A stretch of 64,000 nucleotides of DNA from Parascardovia denticolens DSM 10105 = JCM 12538 (lineage in GTDB: Bacteria; Actinomycetota; Actinomycetes; Actinomycetales; Bifidobacteriaceae). Both the position numbers and the translations under genes were made by a program. The notes beneath the pieces were generated by a model. It was not told where the DNA came from, did no database searches, and worked only from the letters and a program-made list of their open reading frames with translations. The stretch's first letter is position 1, and each line of letters opens with the position of its first letter. Shown in pieces: positions 21,629-45,166 of the stretch. The stretch spans positions 1,240,001 through 1,304,000 of the forward strand of contig NZ_AP012333.1 in the NCBI RefSeq assembly GCF_001042675.1, in the 5' to 3' direction.

Positions 21629-21922
21629 TTAATCCGCCAAAATCTGGGGAGCGACAAACATGCCGTCTTCCTTGGCCGGGGCGCCGGACAGGGCCTGATC
21701 CTGGGTCAAAGGCTTCGCAGGCTCATCGGGACGCAAATAAGCTTCCAAAGGGACCGGGTTCGCGGTAGGGGGAACGTCTTCGGAAGCCACCTCCTGCACC
21801 TTGGCGATGGAATCGGAAATGACGTTCAATTCGCCTTGGAGGCGTTCCGCTTCTTTGTCGGAGAGAGCGATGCGGGAAAGGTCCGCCAGATGCTCAATCT
21901 CCTGTCGTGTGAATCTAGGCAT
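21629..21922 (-). CDS. gatC: Aspartyl/glutamyl-tRNA amidotransferase subunit C
   Basis: Small subunit (97 residues) that wraps around and stabilises GatA. The N-terminus [20 protein letters not shown] and the central [20 protein letters not shown] are typical. The ATG at 21922 is preferred to one nine bases upstream because a TATAGT box ends seven bases before it, the spacing expected of a leaderless message. The preceding bacteriocin-transporter ATPase gene ends only 18 bases upstream. Confidence 0.95.
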
Positions 21923-21929
21923 AGACCCC

Positions 21930-21935
21930 ACTATA
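21930..21935 (-). promoter_or_regulatory. Candidate leaderless gatC promoter (-10 box)
   Basis: TATAGT on the minus strand lies in the 18-base gap between the ATPase stop codon and the gatC ATG. Transcription would start at or next to the A of the ATG. The -35 region, inside the ATPase gene, is poor. Confidence 0.5.
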
Positions 21936-21940
21936 GAAGT

Positions 21941-22609
21941 TCAGCCTGACTTGCTCACATCATAGCAGTAGTCGCATCGGGACATCAGCCTGTCGTCATG
22001 CGTGGCGATGAAAACGATGCCTCCACGACGCGCGTGATCGACCAAGAGATCCGTCACCAGTCCCCGATTCGCCGCGTCCAAAGAGGCGGTCGGCTCATCG
22101 GCGAAAATAATCTCCGCCCTCTTCCACAAGGCGCGAGCGATCCCCAACCTCTGTTTCTCTCCCCCGGAAAGAACGGCGGCTTTATCCCTCAAACGCCCTT
22201 CCAAATGGACCATCCGCAGAATCTCATTGATCCTTTTATCTTGATTCTCTCTTTTCTTCGCGGAAACCTGGAACTTCCACGGCTGATGGGTCAAAGTGAT
22301 GTTGAATTCCACGGTCTCGTCTTCGATGATTCCATAATCTTGATAAATGAAAGCGCAGTCATTTTTCCATAATTTCCTCCGGGAGCCATCGGTCATCCTG
22401 GTGGCGTCCCGACCGTCGAAGCTTATGCTTCCCGAGCTGGGGTCAATGAGCCGCCCGATGATGTTCAGCAAAGTCGTTTTGCCACAGCCAGAAGGCCCGA
22501 TCAGCCCCACCACCTCCCCCGCGGAGGCCTTGAAGGACACGTCATGGAAAAGCAGCCTTGGCCCCACTCTGTATCCGATATTTTGCAAAGTTATCTCTTT
22601 GATGTCCAT
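21941..22609 (-). CDS. ABC transporter ATPase of the lactococcin-972 type export/immunity cassette
   Basis: A 222-residue ATPase with Walker A GPSGCGKTT, signature LSGGEKQRLGIARAL, Walker B IIFADEPTASLD and the switch histidine in FIATHDDR. It resembles the MacB/LolD-like ATPases that accompany lactococcin-972 bacteriocins. Its partner is the large membrane protein immediately upstream (20-base gap), together making an exporter or immunity pump. The order bacteriocin, membrane protein, ATPase matches the known cassettes. Substrate assignment follows from context. Confidence 0.88.
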   Translation of the reverse strand: MDIKEITLQNIGYRVGPRLLFHDVSFKASAGEVVGLIGPSGCGKTTLLNIIGRLIDPSSGSISFDGRDATRMTDGSRRKLWKNDCAFIYQDYGIIEDETVEFNITLTHQPWKFQVSAKKRENQDKRINEILRMVHLEGRLRDKAAVLSGGEKQRLGIARALWKRAEIIFADEPTASLDAANRGLVTDLLVDHARRGGIVFIATHDDRLMSRCDYCYDVSKSG

Positions 22610-22629
22610 GAAAGTCCGACCTTTCTATC

Positions 22630-24618
22630 CTATTCACGGTGAATCATAGCCGCAAAAGCCTGCCGCGCATGGAAAAACGCGAAACCGCATTCCAATCCGA
22701 TGAAAGCCAATAAAATCATCACGACCGTCAAAACGGGGTGAGAGACAGCCTGCCACTCGTGGGCGAAAAGAAGCTGGGAAAGGGTGAGGCTCCCCGCGAT
22801 GATGAAGACTGCTTGCAGGAGATAGGAGGAGATGATGCTCAAGTATGGCTCCCCGGACGTATGTCTGACGAATATCCATCGACGCTTGCGGATCATCCAT
22901 AGCCTGCTGGATATGGCCGCGCAGAGTATGATCGCCATGCAAGCAGTGATGACGAGAATGAAGTCAAGGTAGACTTCATATTCCATGATCTGAGAAGCCA
23001 GAACGGCGTCATCGACAATGGAATTGATGGCGTAAACAGCCTGCTGAGCGTTCTCTTGATGCAGGGCCTCTTCGACACCATCAGGCTGCGTGAAGAAAAG
23101 ATTACCCGTCGTCATGGCCGGATAAAGGAATTGATCGGGATTGAGCGCCTTCAAATCCTTCACCAGGATGATCAAAGGCTTGTGGACCAAGGAGAAAGTT
23201 CCGACTCCGCCGGTCGCTAGGAGGACCGGGATGGAAGCATGAGATCCCTGACAGGGGGAATAAAGCATGTCGGTCATGGACTTGGTGGAACCCTTCGCAA
23301 GCCAGAGATCATCGTATTGTCGGATTTTCCCAGCCAGAGCGGGGTCGATCATCGAAGGCTGAACCTTGCACAATGACTTTTCCTGAATATGGAGACTGGT
23401 CAAAAAGGTCGGATTCATTACGGCGATGCTGTCATAAGGAGCCATAAGACCTGCGTCTATAGTCCCGCGGCTGTTCTGCGCGATGCTATTCGCAGCGGAA
23501 TAAGACAAAGCGGCTTGCCGCTTGCCTTCCATCCGATAGGCCACACGGACGAGTTTCCGAGCATACGAATCCTCCGTTTTCTCGGAAGGGTCAATCTGGA
23601 GGTTCACCGCATGGGATATCTGTCTCCAGCGCGACACGGACCCAAGCTGCTGCCTTGCGACGCCGAAGTTCGCTAAGGCCGTGGGGAAAACAGATACGAC
23701 GACGATGGTGGATAAGACTTTGATCACGATAGAGCCAACCAGGGAGGCCCTGGGGGCTCCTTCGCGGATGGCGATTTGATGGGTGGAAGGAAAAATCACC
23801 ACCGTACTGATACTGATGAAAAAGGCCGGGAGAAGGAGAAGACCGAGAAAGAAAATCAGGAGATATTTGATGACGAAGCCAAAAAGATAGAATTTGTGGA
23901 GGATACTTAGAATAAGACAAGACAAGAGGAGAAGAAGAAGGAGCTGCAAAGACGAATAACGGAGAAACTCGTAGACACTTTGGGCAGCGATTTCCGCCTT
24001 TCCTAGACCGCTTTGGGTTTTGATCCTGACACTCGGCATTTTTTCAGCAAGAAAAGCCCAGACGAGGGAAACGATGAAAAGCAAGGCTGCCACGGCGAGA
24101 AAGGGAATGGTGGAATGCGAGCGCCACATATATGCCAATAAATGGTCATTCTTCTGCATATTCTCTTCGATCGTCACGCCCTGTCCTCTGAGGAAACGCG
24201 AAAAAGAGAAACACTGGTTCGAATCGTGAAAGAGATAGGTTCCGGAGAGATTTAAGGCTTTTATCTCGCTCGCTGGCAGATAACGCCCTTTCATCCCCCT
24301 CCGATACCACGATACGGGGCAGTCCCCTGACGCGCATCGCTTGGGTTTTTGACCGAAATAATAGAGGTTTTTGACGTGAATCACATCCGTCGTATCTGGT
24401 TTGACCAGAACCGGAGTTATCCGGGATTCACGGGCCCATTCGTCTATGTTTTCGATCAGCTGCCGTTTCGGGGAAGAAGATGAGGAGACATTAACATTGA
24501 TTGCATAAGAATAACCCTCAGGGAAATCCTGATCGATCTCGCCCACGGTCACATCGACTAAGACAGCGCAGACAAGCATAATGATGCACAGGGCTATTTG
24601 GGTGACTTTTTTAAGCAT
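22630..24618 (-). CDS. Bacteriocin-associated integral membrane protein (lactococcin-972 cassette permease)
   Basis: A 662-residue membrane protein with one N-terminal helix (LKKVTQIALCIIMLVCAVLVDV), a large outer domain, three helices around residues 175-280, a second outer domain of about 230 residues, and three to four C-terminal helices. This 1+3+outer domain+3/4 pattern matches the bacteriocin-associated membrane protein family (DUF1430-like) with FtsX/MacB-like topology. The ATG at 24618 follows AGGACGGAT; the frame continues to a GTG at 24666 without a comparable site. GC content looks lower than in the neighbouring gat genes, suggesting acquisition. Confidence 0.82.
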   Translation of the reverse strand: MLKKVTQIALCIIMLVCAVLVDVTVGEIDQDFPEGYSYAINVNVSSSSSPKRQLIENIDEWARESRITPVLVKPDTTDVIHVKNLYYFGQKPKRCASGDCPVSWYRRGMKGRYLPASEIKALNLSGTYLFHDSNQCFSFSRFLRGQGVTIEENMQKNDHLLAYMWRSHSTIPFLAVAALLFIVSLVWAFLAEKMPSVRIKTQSGLGKAEIAAQSVYEFLRYSSLQLLLLLLLSCLILSILHKFYLFGFVIKYLLIFFLGLLLLPAFFISISTVVIFPSTHQIAIREGAPRASLVGSIVIKVLSTIVVVSVFPTALANFGVARQQLGSVSRWRQISHAVNLQIDPSEKTEDSYARKLVRVAYRMEGKRQAALSYSAANSIAQNSRGTIDAGLMAPYDSIAVMNPTFLTSLHIQEKSLCKVQPSMIDPALAGKIRQYDDLWLAKGSTKSMTDMLYSPCQGSHASIPVLLATGGVGTFSLVHKPLIILVKDLKALNPDQFLYPAMTTGNLFFTQPDGVEEALHQENAQQAVYAINSIVDDAVLASQIMEYEVYLDFILVITACMAIILCAAISSRLWMIRKRRWIFVRHTSGEPYLSIISSYLLQAVFIIAGSLTLSQLLFAHEWQAVSHPVLTVVMILLAFIGLECGFAFFHARQAFAAMIHRE

Positions 24619-24760
24619 ATCCGTCCTAAATCTTCCTAGCTGCTTCTCAAGTCCAGCCGAACTCACCAGCTTTATATCGTGCTATCTGTCGGTTTCCTAC
24701 TACTTGAATATCATAACCAATAACCGAATACGTTAAAAACAAGCCGTAGCGGACACGCAT

Positions 24761-24820
24761 AAGTTGCGATGGTGCTATCCATACGTTTTACAACTGATAT
24801 GGATAGCACCATCGCAACTT
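24761..24820. promoter_or_regulatory. Perfect 23-bp inverted repeat between bacteriocin and permease genes
   Basis: Arm 24761-24783 (starting AAGTTGCGATGG) is exactly complementary to 24798-24820, with a 14-base loop. There is no T-run on either side, so it is not a standard Rho-independent terminator. It lies after the precursor stop and about 140 bases before the permease start, where it could stabilise the precursor mRNA or limit read-through. Confidence 0.85.
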
Positions 24821-24873
24821 ACCCGCTTTGTTCAGAACTATCAAATTAATATCCCTGTTAACCGAGCACAGTT

Positions 24874-25224
24874 TTACCGCACTCTGTAGTAATAGCTGGG
24901 AGTACCATCAAATGCCCAAATCTCAGCTGTTGACCATGAACCTTTTGCCGCATATGGAGTGACTAGCTGCTTATTCCTCGATTTAACTGTCGAAGCGTGG
25001 GCCCAGCTCGGATGCCAATAATTCGACCATGCTTTTATCTGTAGCGCATGTCCATATTGCCAAGTTCCGCCCTCTGCCGGATGCGTCTCCGCAGCGCAAG
25101 CCATTCCCGCTGGGAAAGCTAACATAGTCAACGCAATAACCGACACAATAACTTTGTTCCCATCATTCGCTCCTTTGCAAACACTGTATATGACGAGTAA
25201 GAAGAGCGGTACTACTGTTGACAT
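24874..25224 (-). CDS. Lactococcin-972 family bacteriocin precursor (start codon uncertain)
   Basis: The C-terminal 71 residues after the predicted cleavage site ACAA/E start ETHPAEGGTWQYGHALQIK and end PSYYYRVR. They match lactococcin 972 in size (66 residues in the mature model), the GTWQ(Y/H)G start, aromatic SNYWHPSW-HASTV motif and YYY end. The signal helix VIVSVIALTMLAFPAGMA precedes it. The best ribosome site (AAAGGAG, 25176-25170) points to ATGs at 25166 and 25163, but these are out of frame by one base; one extra G in GGGAAC would give MGNKVIVSVIAL. The coordinates given use the first ATG that is in frame. Lactococcin 972 binds lipid II and blocks septum formation in lactococci; the target here is unknown. 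Confidence 0.78.
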   Translation of the reverse strand: MSTVVPLFLLVIYSVCKGANDGNKVIVSVIALTMLAFPAGMACAAETHPAEGGTWQYGHALQIKAWSNYWHPSWAHASTVKSRNKQLVTPYAAKGSWSTAEIWAFDGTPSYYYRVR

Positions 25225-25413
25225 ACCACTGTCTGACCATATCTTCTTATCTGTCAGTATATCACAGATATACACATCGGCTCATATATAAATCGCCTTT
25301 ATATTATCCTCCTCAGATAAACTCCCCCATTTTTATCCGTTTTTCACTTCTTCTCCCTTTTCACTTCTCCGCCCACCTGTAAGCTCGAGCTCAATCCGAG
25401 GCTTCACCCGTCC

Positions 25414-26157
25414 TTAGCCGTGCTGCATCATCCAAGCATGCATGGAAACCGCGGCTGCGGCGCCAGCATTGAGAGAGCGGACAGAGCCATACTGAGTGAT
25501 GTAGACCACGTCATCCGCTATGCCCAGAGCCTTCCGAGTCAAGCCAGGTCCCTCGGCCCCGAAAAGCAGGACGCACCGTTCGGGGAAACGGTAGGTCTCG
25601 ATGGGGACCGCTCCGGGAACGATGTCCAAGGCGACGATGCGAGTGTGGATAGGTTGAGCTTTGTTACCCTCTTTACCCTCTTTGGCCGCGGCCTCTTGGG
25701 ACTCCTTCCGATCGCGAGCGCGGATGTCCGCCACGAATTCATCGATGGACGGATGGTAGTCGATGGTCTGGTAAAGCTCGGTCATAAGGGAGCCTTTGCG
25801 GTTCCACTTATGCGGGCCGATGATGTGCACTCGTTTGGCGGTGAAGGCGTTGGCCGTGCGGACCATGGAACCGATGTTGAAGTCGTGGGTCCAGTTTTCA
25901 ATGGCGACTTCAAAGGAATGCCTCCCGCGGCTATCCAGGTCGGCCTTGATGGCCTCCACAGTCCAGTAACGGTAGCGGTCCATAACGTTACGGCTGTCGC
26001 CTTGGTCCAGAAGCTCCGGGTCAAATCGTGGGTCTTGCGCGGGGTCCGGCCGCGGCTGATCCGGGTGCTCCCGCTCCCACGGCCCGACGCCGATCGGCCG
26101 CAACTGGGGGTCTCCCGCGGCCATCACTCGTTTGGTGTATTCGCTTGGTTCGTACAT
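25414..26157 (-). CDS. SpoU/TrmH-family RNA methyltransferase
   Basis: A 247-residue S-adenosylmethionine-dependent 2'-O-methyltransferase with the trefoil-knot (SPOUT) C-terminal fold. Three motifs are visible: motif 1 HDFNIGSMVRTANAF, motif 2 CVLLFGAEGPGLT and motif 3 YGSVRSLNAGAAAAVSMH, which builds the cofactor-binding knot. The N-terminal 75 residues are Pro/Asp-rich with no recognisable RNA-binding domain. A Lys/Glu-rich insertion (KESQEAAAKEGKEGNKAQ) sits between motifs 1 and 2. The target nucleotide cannot be deduced. Confidence 0.9.
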   Translation of the reverse strand: MYEPSEYTKRVMAAGDPQLRPIGVGPWEREHPDQPRPDPAQDPRFDPELLDQGDSRNVMDRYRYWTVEAIKADLDSRGRHSFEVAIENWTHDFNIGSMVRTANAFTAKRVHIIGPHKWNRKGSLMTELYQTIDYHPSIDEFVADIRARDRKESQEAAAKEGKEGNKAQPIHTRIVALDIVPGAVPIETYRFPERCVLLFGAEGPGLTRKALGIADDVVYITQYGSVRSLNAGAAAAVSMHAWMMQHG

Positions 26158-40674: not shown

Positions 40675-40813
40675 TATGAGGCTCCTGACTCGTACGTAAC
40701 GGAACCATTCTAGCGGATAAGAGGCACAATTCCCACACAAAGCGGACAAACCCCTTCCCTCCGGCCCCTTCCTCATGCTATGGTGAACTTGTCGTCCACC
40801 GACGACACTCCAT

Positions 40814-40923
40814 GTTTCAGGGCAGGGTGCGATTCCCTACTGGCGGTAGAGCCCGCGACCCGCGAAAGCGGCTGACCCGGTGGAATCCCAGGGCCAACGG
40901 TATAGTCCGGATGAAAGAAACGA
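40814..40923 (+). promoter_or_regulatory. FMN riboswitch (RFN element)
   Basis: The conserved segments appear in order: CAGGGCAGGGTGCGATTCCC, then ACTGGCGGTAGAGCCCGCGA, CGAAAGCGGCTGACCCGGTG, AATCCCAGGGCCAACGGTA and AGTCCGGATGAAAGAAACGA. These are the joining regions and helices of the FMN aptamer. It ends six bases before the ribU ATG, so it probably acts by masking the start region of the mRNA when FMN is bound. Confidence 0.96.
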
Positions 40924-40929
40924 GTACAA

Positions 40930-43889: not shown

Positions 43890-44223
43890 CTCTTGGGACT
43901 TTTATGACTTTCATGGTTTTTATGACTTTTACGGCCCCCTCCCGCTGCGACTATGAACGAACATGAAGGTTACGTACAACCCTGAACAGGCCGGGAAGAT
44001 TAAGAATGATCATGAAGGACCATGCCTGCCGTATGCTAAAATCCGTCGTCTCCACCAGTGAAAATCCTGCGAAACCCGCTTGACTTATATCTCATATTTC
44101 ATATTACATTATACTTATTTCAGCTACAAAGTGGTAGTACACACTTTAAAGAAGGGGATGCCGATACCTCGTAACCCACTTACCAGTATCACATGATATT
44201 CAATTTTTTCAAGCGTGAACTTA
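43890..44223. other. AT-rich intergenic region
   Basis: No gene is supported. The first 50 bases carry a degenerate repeat of TTTATGACTTT. From about 44085 the sequence becomes markedly AT-rich, with TTGACT (44090-44095) followed by several possible -10 boxes, including TATACT near 44120. These could drive the secreted-protein gene downstream. Confidence 0.4.
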
Positions 44224-44246
44224 TTGACGGTGAGACTCACCATCAA
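44224..44246. promoter_or_regulatory. Interrupted palindrome upstream of the secreted-protein gene
   Basis: TTGA-c-GGTGAG is followed, after one base, by CTCACC-a-TCAA. It is nearly perfectly symmetrical and sits just upstream of the hairpin at the ribosome site. It could be an operator or a small hairpin. Confidence 0.5.
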
Positions 44247-44251
44247 TATCT

Positions 44252-44283
44252 CTCCCATTCTCTTCTGGATAAGAGAATGGGAG
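44252..44283 (+). promoter_or_regulatory. Hairpin covering the ribosome binding site
   Basis: CTCCCATTCTCTT pairs perfectly with AAGAGAATGGGAG (13 bp, six-base loop). The second arm ends with GGGAG, the Shine-Dalgarno sequence of the ATG at 44288. In the folded mRNA the site would be hidden. Confidence 0.75.
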
Positions 44284-44287
44284 CTTA

Positions 44288-45146
44288 ATGAAAACAATTT
44301 TTCGCAAAACTCCTAGGTTAATCATGAAAATTAATTTGACTAAATCCTTAGCAGGCCTTATCACATTAACATTTTACTAATTCCTGCTACGGCTTTCGCA
44401 TCCAGTATCGACTACACAACTTCCCAAGATGGTATACAATCTGAACAAATTCAAAATATCATCAGCGGAACGTCAACCATAGAAGCTGAATTGGCGAGAC
44501 AACACACGTCAGTGACAGAACAGCTGCAGCATATGTCTGATGAATACATCTCCATGCTTTCAGATCCCACTCTCTCTGCCGAACAAAAAAATGACATCGA
44601 AGAAATGATTTCTTGTTTGCAAGATGAAATCCAAGAGTATAGTAGTTTTTCTAAAGAAAGGTTGCAGCTTCAATCTAATCAGTCATCTTCCAAAATCATA
44701 ACAAAAGTAGGAACCCCCCCCAAGATAAATACTACGACGCAGCAATCACTACTGTGACTGCTTGGTTCCAGATGAAGGGCTATAAATTATCAGCGGAACT
44801 TCTCACGCATAATCGCGCAAATAAAAAAAGAAATTCACTTTATCTTCCAATTTATGGAAGCCGAGTCTGCGAATCACCTTTGTTCGGCAAACTTCGAAAA
44901 TCGTCGAATCGTTTTGGAAGTTCGGCATTCCCCAATCAAGGAAGTACCGTGGAAAGAGATTTATATTACTCAATTCATCGATTTAACTGGTCACGAACAG
45001 GAAGCTATGTAACCATTACTGATACTTATGATTGGAGTCAAGATAAGAGCTACACTTCAATTGCGGGGATTGCTGTCAATACGATGTATGCAGCTCAGCA
45101 ACGAGGTATATTGATTCCATACAAAATCAGTATAACTCGTAACTAA
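44288..45146 (+). pseudogene. Secreted protein gene with two apparent frameshifts
   Basis: The ATG follows GGGAG and opens MKTIFRKTPRLIMKINLTKSL, a basic start and hydrophobic signal segment (AGLITLTF) that hits TAA at 44378. One base shift restores ILLIPATAFA/SSIDYTTSQ, a clear signal-peptidase site, and the frame then runs to a TGA at 44755. There a run of eight C (44714-44721) separates it from the next frame; with nine C it would continue PQDKYYDAAITTVTAWFQ to a stop at 45146. The restored protein would be about 286 residues, with a polar, Tyr/Ser-rich C-terminal half containing GSYVTITDTYDW. The family is not recognised. The AT-rich codon use differs from neighbours, suggesting transfer. 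Confidence 0.7.
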
Positions 45147-45166
45147 TTCGATTTCGACAAATCGAA
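45147..45166 (+). promoter_or_regulatory. Small hairpin between the frameshifted gene and the next gene
   Basis: TTCGATTT and AAATCGAA pair perfectly around a four-base loop, directly after the stop at 45146 and upstream of the AAAGGAGG site of the next gene. It lacks a T-run. Confidence 0.5.

Follow-up and report, generated by a model that had tools for sequence, protein, structure and literature searches.

Bacteriocins of the lactococcin 972 family bind lipid II and block septation (PMC11796350). On plasmid pBL1 (NC_004955.1) the genes for the bacteriocin, for a membrane protein of 648 amino acids, and for an ATP-binding cassette (ABC) ATPase follow one another in this order on one strand. 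Similar sets, in which a lactococcin-972-like (Lcn972-like) bacteriocin is joined by an ABC ATPase and by a protein of DUF1430 type or immunity type, are described for streptococcin B of the pneumococcus (scbABC) and mediterrocin of Mediterraneibacter gnavus, and Lcn972-like genes in bifidobacteria are already in print (PMC4289311, PMC8477406). No literature with both "Parascardovia" and "lactococcin" was found. The cassette described here is in Parascardovia denticolens DSM 10105 = JCM 12538, within positions 1,240,001 to 1,304,000 of contig NZ_AP012333.1, and this whole stretch of 64,000 nucleotides is referred to as the window.

The cassette occupies 21941-25176 of the minus strand, on which its genes, its flanking genes, and its other stranded elements also lie. 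It has the gene order of pBL1, with the sequence encoding a lactococcin-972 domain furthest upstream, followed by genes for a 662 amino acid membrane protein and a 222 amino acid ABC ATPase. It is a new, and probably decayed, member of this group of cassettes. The explanation favoured here, which is reasonably probable, is that it was acquired between a SpoU-type methylase gene and gatC and that its bacteriocin gene then lost its frame within the first codons. Ribosomes at the good Shine-Dalgarno sequence would make a 12-residue peptide and stop, and the strain would make little or no bacteriocin. The downstream permease and ATPase genes, which are still open, would form a type VII ABC complex that detaches Lcn972-like peptides from lipid II on the cell surface at the cost of ATP, and the cell would be an immune non-producer.

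The lactococcin-972 domain

The domain (THPAEGGTWQYG...SYYYRVR) is encoded at 24877-25086, with its stop codon at 24874-24876. An earlier note, made from the letters of the sequence, had placed the small protein in the lactococcin 972 family, and this assignment holds: the domain scores above the cut-offs of both PF09683 (41.8 bits, cut-off 22, expect value (E) 1.7e-10) and TIGR01653 (36.9 bits, cut-off 32.1), and a sequence search of the PDB finds 9hkj (E 9e-5) and lactococcin 972 itself (2lgn, E 9e-4). An AlphaFold model of the domain was made from 5 sequences, with a predicted local distance difference test score (pLDDT) of 75. With Foldseek, 2lgn ranks first (probability 1.00, template modelling (TM) score 0.62, 31% identity), but at E 0.064, the second rank having a probability of 0.25; with VIA-align, formosin D (9hkj, Z 6.8) and 2lgn (Z 6.3) take the first two ranks, a small lead over a subtilase in third place (Z 5.6). 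The modelled fold, a beta-sandwich as in 2lgn, is nearest to lactococcin 972 and formosin D.

The family motifs are retained in the mature domain, which has no cysteines. Among 23 mature Lcn972-like domains, cysteines are absent from 6, two are present in 16 (including G183, where the second is just before the printed stretch), and three are found in G111 alone (G and L numbers denote genomes and loci). The position of the pair varies by lineage, as if one disulfide had wandered over the fold.

In a scan with a four-sequence alignment, the named precursors found were those of Bifidobacterium pseudolongum (55%), B. erythrocebi (49%), Kocuria tytonis (40%), and Lysinibacillus mangiferihumi (36%). 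The first of these, from B. pseudolongum subsp. globosum 2093B (L069), shares the three-gene order and the lack of cysteine, but its precursor is intact, in frame (L011), and has a longer leader, its permease is only 24% identical to that of the window, and its chromosomal site is another. The pBL1 cassette differs in being plasmid-borne and of low GC, and in having a precursor that starts in frame behind a Shine-Dalgarno sequence.

The start of the precursor gene

The only well-placed combination of ribosome-binding site and start in this region is the Shine-Dalgarno sequence AAAGGAG at 25170-25176, 3 and 6 nucleotides before two ATGs (ATGATG, 25166-25161), and these are out of frame with the bacteriocin. 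Translation from here gives MMGTKLLCRLLR and then a stop, after 12 codons (25128-25166). The same AAAGGAG precedes the precursor start of a second cassette in this genome (L036). A leader-like sequence is present, but in the window, which is from one assembly, no ribosome-binding site is placed so that the precursor can be translated from it.

All 28 PF09683 loci of the family search, from 25 of 189 genomes, were surveyed by script for their starts. There is an in-frame start behind a Shine-Dalgarno sequence in 22, although two of these genes (L034, L038) are broken at a later point. The six without one are the window gene, L026, where a stop separates the in-frame start from the domain, and L030, L031, L035, and L037, which are fragments or interrupted genes, L031 and L037 looking alike. 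Among these six, it is only in the window gene that a good Shine-Dalgarno sequence and ATG are at the usual distance yet out of frame, 30.7-31.7 codons from the domain. For the 22 in-frame starts this distance is 29-43 codons in 16 and 56-69 codons in 6. The signal-peptide-like stretch of the window directly precedes the domain, as it does in G018 (L017), and would begin at the out-of-frame ATG. Given that most loci start in frame behind a Shine-Dalgarno sequence, and that the window has such a start at the usual distance but in the wrong frame, the precursor as assembled is frameshifted within its first few codons.

Three points weigh against a genuine loss of frame. There is one assembly of this species, the domain frame is open back to 25281 with potential starts at ATG 25224 and GTG 25275, and three of the closest relatives (L011, L020, L023) are in the group with 56-69 codons before the domain, having a pro-region between the signal peptide and the domain. 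The first of these points would allow the frameshift to be an assembly error, with an intact precursor and an active cassette in the true genome. Single-base errors do occur in assemblies and the mature domain is well kept; however, no single-base run longer than 3 is present in this stretch and precursors of this family are often interrupted, which makes an error of this kind unlikely.

A functional precursor starting from ATG 25224 or GTG 25275 without a Shine-Dalgarno sequence, or from a leaderless message, would have an extended leader and leave the cassette complete and active. In its favour are the open frame from 25281 to the stop, the conserved motifs, the long leaders of close relatives, and the TATAGT close to the gatC start, which suggests that very short message leaders occur here. 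This is nevertheless somewhat less likely still than an assembly error, as most of the surveyed loci start behind a Shine-Dalgarno sequence, the window leader would contain two hydrophobic stretches, unlike the other precursor leaders read, and the AAAGGAG and ATG at the usual distance would have to be there by chance.

With the frame lost as assembled, the earlier note's complete cassette can be accepted for its three genes, their strand, and their order, while its completeness is doubtful; the start it had picked, ATG 25224, has no Shine-Dalgarno sequence. It had also proposed that the cassette makes, or once made, a bacteriocin, and because of the frameshift at the start it is "once made" that is favoured.

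The permease and the ATPase

The permease gene (22630-24618, starting at ATG 24618) lies between the Lcn972 gene and the ABC gene, as expected from the layout of these cassettes, and its product is of about the expected 650 amino acids, with eight hydrophobic segments, where the name of TIGR01654 says seven, and two large outer stretches. The family match anticipated by the earlier note, which had given the permease and ATPase no function beyond a bacteriocin-associated layout, is there, but at 18.8 bits it is far below the cut-off of 189.35 for TIGR01654, the bacteriocin-associated integral membrane protein; the other such permease of this genome scores 116.8, and of 14 aligned permeases 8 reach E 0.01 or better against this model. 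For the ATPase (21941-22609) the best family is TIGR03608 (187.8 bits, below the cut-off of 254.85), followed by FtsE and LolD, and all 15 aligned ATPases match TIGR03608 at E 1e-40 or better.

In all five permeases compared, the eight hydrophobic segments and two large outer stretches follow a pattern of a segment, an outer domain, and three segments, twice over. On this pattern, residues 1-287 and 289-660 of the window protein can be taken for two FtsX/MacB-like modules in tandem. A model of the permease gave six Foldseek matches at E below 0.001, one to YbbP (E 1.3e-7) and five to BceB (one of them at E 1.4e-5). VIA-align of the whole protein found YbbP (Z 12.6, 372 aligned, 5.6 A) and BceB (Z 11.3, 417 aligned, 7.4 A), while residues 1-287 found HrtB (Z 12.3, 152 aligned, 3.8 A) and residues 287-660 found FtsX (Z 7.9, 164 aligned, 4.4 A), with LolCDE subunits also at Z about 8. 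The model has, at moderate confidence, the features of the type VII fold, namely a segment, an outer domain, three segments, and long stalk helices.

The two halves also align with one another (hhalign probability 74%, E 2.7e-5, 78 columns), the alignment being centred on two loops that hold G204 and G589, two of the three residues that are invariant in 14 permeases. In genome G172 (L134, 1279-3572) the permease is naturally split into overlapping genes for proteins of 331 and 433 amino acids with four hydrophobic segments each, the first of which is above the Pfam FtsX cut-off (28.3 against 25.5). Against the G172 pair, profiles of the two halves give weak matches (best E 1.7e-6) that do not assign either protein to a half. 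When the permease alignment was searched as a profile against the PDB, the single match was at chance level.

Against such a fold are the origin of the model in 5 sequences and its moderate confidence (pLDDT 75.9), the low TM-scores of the six best Foldseek matches (0.23-0.34), the fact that the Z level of the second half is shared with unrelated long-helix proteins (condensin, moesin 7.9), and the score of the first half against PF02687 (FtsX), 7.7 bits with a cut-off of 25.5; PF02687 matches one of the 14 aligned permeases (E 1.5e-4). DUF1430 shares a Pfam clan with FtsX (PMC6588880), while it has been doubted that DUF1430 proteins are real ABC proteins (PMC9408558). Taken as modelled, the permease seems to consist of a tandem pair of FtsX/MacB-type modules similar to YbbP and BceB. 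On the evidence of the model, the alignment of the halves, the split in G172, and an ATPase nearest to TIGR03608, FtsE, and LolD, the permease and ATPase most probably form a type VII (MacB/FtsX/Bce-like) ABC complex. The modelled fold, the module layout, and the FtsE/LolD-like ATPase are shared with the BceAB, YbbAP, and FtsEX systems, from which the window differs in its sub-threshold PF02687 score, in having a bacteriocin gene as the partner, and in its flanks, which are gatC and a methylase gene with no two-component system.

A role in anti-phage defence was considered and rejected, the permease having no PADLOC match and the ATPase matches looking like general ABC/AAA similarity.

Immunity or export

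Immunity, through protection of lipid II, is more probably the function of the permease and ATPase than export of the peptide, because the precursors have Sec-type signal peptides and the permease model is like BceB, YbbP, and FtsX. The signal peptides were read by eye from the sequences, and bacteriocins of this kind are taken as Sec-secreted in PMC11796350 and PMC12345188. In Lactococcus lactis the BceAB-like transporter YsaDCB raises resistance to Lcn972 (PMC7438565). Streptococcin B producers inhibit strain D39 although D39 has scbBC, which weakens the case for immunity; the D39 scbBC promoter is, however, inactive without added peptide (PMC11796350), so the genes alone do not show immunity. 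A dedicated bacteriocin exporter, as in the NCBIfam name of the ATPase family TIGR03608 and in keeping with MacB-type complexes, which serve export too, is improbable given the Sec-type signal peptides and the transporter genes that are still open where the precursor is broken. Among the matches listed in searches of the literature on lactococcin 972 with BceAB, FtsX, MacB, or mechanotransmission, there was no proposal that the permease of such a cassette itself works in a type VII complex that removes the peptide from lipid II.

Loss of the bacteriocin gene in related cassettes

A profile of 14 permeases gave 61 matches in 45 of the 189 genomes of the family, and 59 of these loci (partial G156 and G015 being left out) had as much as 1,000 bases of their upstream sequence searched with a profile built from 22 mature domains, those of the window and of G062 among them. 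At 16 loci the precursor is intact, its domain being of full length and its Shine-Dalgarno start in frame (those in G066, G078, G098, and G114 being alike), and at 9 it is interrupted; the other 34 have no recognisable precursor, a group that includes G022, which could not be judged, and G028, where a possible tail (YHYRIC) seen by eye was left uncounted. Many permeases in this last group are distantly related and may have other peptides as partners.

Eight of the interrupted precursors or remnants were found by profile: the window, G029, G059, G062:C41, G096:C19, G159, G174, and G181, with G029 and G181 detected weakly (E about 0.09). The ninth, in G001, was missed by the profile and found by eye; its leader runs on into no more than the beginning of the mature part before a stop, and the permease and ATPase are open. 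Interrupted precursors therefore account for 9 of the 25 cassettes with a recognisable precursor, and the permease is open in 7 of the 9, including G059, G174, G181, G062:C41, and G096:C19. In-frame stops in the permease are present in 2 of the 9 (G029, G159), in none of the 16 with an intact precursor, and in 3 of the 34 without a recognisable one. Were decay proportional to gene length, seven bacteriocin-first and no permease-first losses would have a probability of about 0.13 to the power 7, a figure that carries no weight as a test since the genomes share ancestry and the losses cannot be counted as independent.

A natural loss of the bacteriocin gene with retention of the other two is also seen in the pneumococcus, where scbBC is kept without the bacteriocin gene in 157 of 571 genomes (PMC11796350). 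There, the loss is a deletion that also removes part of the promoter, and the locus is tied to competence.

The P. denticolens genome has a second, divergent lactococcin-972 cassette (G000:C1:642658 to about 646015; L036, L055; PF09683 33.7 bits), with an in-frame start, an open permease in a frame of 723 amino acids, and an ATPase. This may be the active one.

Insertion site and acquisition

The cassette is flanked by the SpoU-type methylase gene (25414-26157) and gatC (21629-21922 from its ATG), just upstream of which the inserted genes end. A TATAGT resembling a -10 sequence, 7 nucleotides before the gatC ATG (window 21922-21935), is kept in all three genomes of the genus (G000, G001, G002), and its position suggests a message with almost no leader.

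The site is occupied by this cassette in one of the three genomes of the genus, and the cassette is therefore not universal in the clade, which the earlier note had named as a refuting condition if codon use were also normal. The distance from the methylase gene to gatC, between matched ends, is 109 bp in G002, 156 bp in G018, 99 bp in G061, 69 bp in G060, and 70 bp in G003. In G001 there is a different insert of 2.9 kb in this gap (L052, 1513-4383), which by eye encodes an ABC-F-like and a smaller protein, and in G029 one of 2.1 kb (L054, 1636-3731) with an ATPase-like protein by eye. In many Bifidobacteriaceae of the compared lists the methylase gene and gatC are kilobases apart.

The GC content of the precursor, permease, and ATPase genes is 0.495, 0.508, and 0.537, against 0.58-0.62 for gatA, gatC, and the methylase gene and 0.595 for the whole window, in agreement with the lower GC that the earlier note had read as a sign of acquisition. 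GC at third codon positions separates the cassette from its flanks less well, being 0.61 in the permease and 0.68 in the ATPase gene against 0.65-0.78. Because the nearest relatives have no cassette upstream of gatC and the GC of the cassette is lower, its acquisition within the genus is supported. A mobile element as the carrier was looked for and rejected: a tblastn search of IMG/VR found no relative of the peptide among 53 pattern-matched stretches, a 23-base piece of the peptide's coding sequence has no exact counterpart in IMG/VR, and no PLSDB plasmid matches the window peptide at E 0.001.

Hairpin and other elements

Between the precursor and the permease gene there is a hairpin (24760-24821) with a perfect 24 bp stem and a 14-nucleotide loop (z -8.8), and on pBL1 there is also one just after the bacteriocin gene. 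Of 24 loci tested, 13 have a strong hairpin of at least 11 perfect pairs after the bacteriocin gene, four of the 13 being alike, as does pBL1; the hairpin sequences differ between lineages (for example the window, L073 (pBL1), L071, L061, L062, and L134). A T-rich stretch comes soon after the hairpin only in G062 and G102 of the 13, and in pBL1 the T run is inside the stem. An intrinsic terminator is not favoured for the window hairpin, which has no T run directly after it; the terminator scan considered loops of 3-8 only and could not list it. Nor does it appear to be a repeated element, as the genome has no other full match and one match to an arm with 3 mismatches. Hairpins at this place perhaps stabilise or process the message and thereby govern how much peptide is made relative to permease.

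Upstream of the precursor, the dyad TATCTGT-N9-ACAGATA (25248-25270) is a candidate operator. The flanks of the window cassette have no response-regulator-like gene. Such a gene is found by eye near the Bifidobacterium-type cassettes L061, L062, L063, and L066, and in L061, L062, and L066 it is divergent from the precursor and adjoins a larger membrane-protein gene, which may be for its kinase.

Between 20000 and 48000, Rfam at gathering thresholds finds nothing beyond one tRNA and one flavin mononucleotide (FMN) riboswitch (40809-40926, 106 bits), which is ahead of a long reading frame resembling ABC or energy-coupling factor (ECF) transporter components. The lowest GC among the 1 kb bins of the window (0.39) is at 44000-45150, where there is a reading frame of 130 codons with no evident identity.

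Implications

The frameshift in this cassette shows that a call of "complete bacteriocin cassette" made from domain hits can mislead as to production. The tandem FtsX-type reading of the permease provides a concrete and testable mechanism, and it bears against the doubt over DUF1430 expressed in PMC9408558. More broadly, and tentatively, with the chances slightly against it, the TIGR01654/DUF1430 protein and its ATPase might be a tandem-module type VII machine that guards lipid II against Lcn972-like peptides, and cassettes of the Bifidobacteriaceae might decay bacteriocin-first, leaving a standing population of immune non-producers, of which the P. denticolens cassette would represent an early step.

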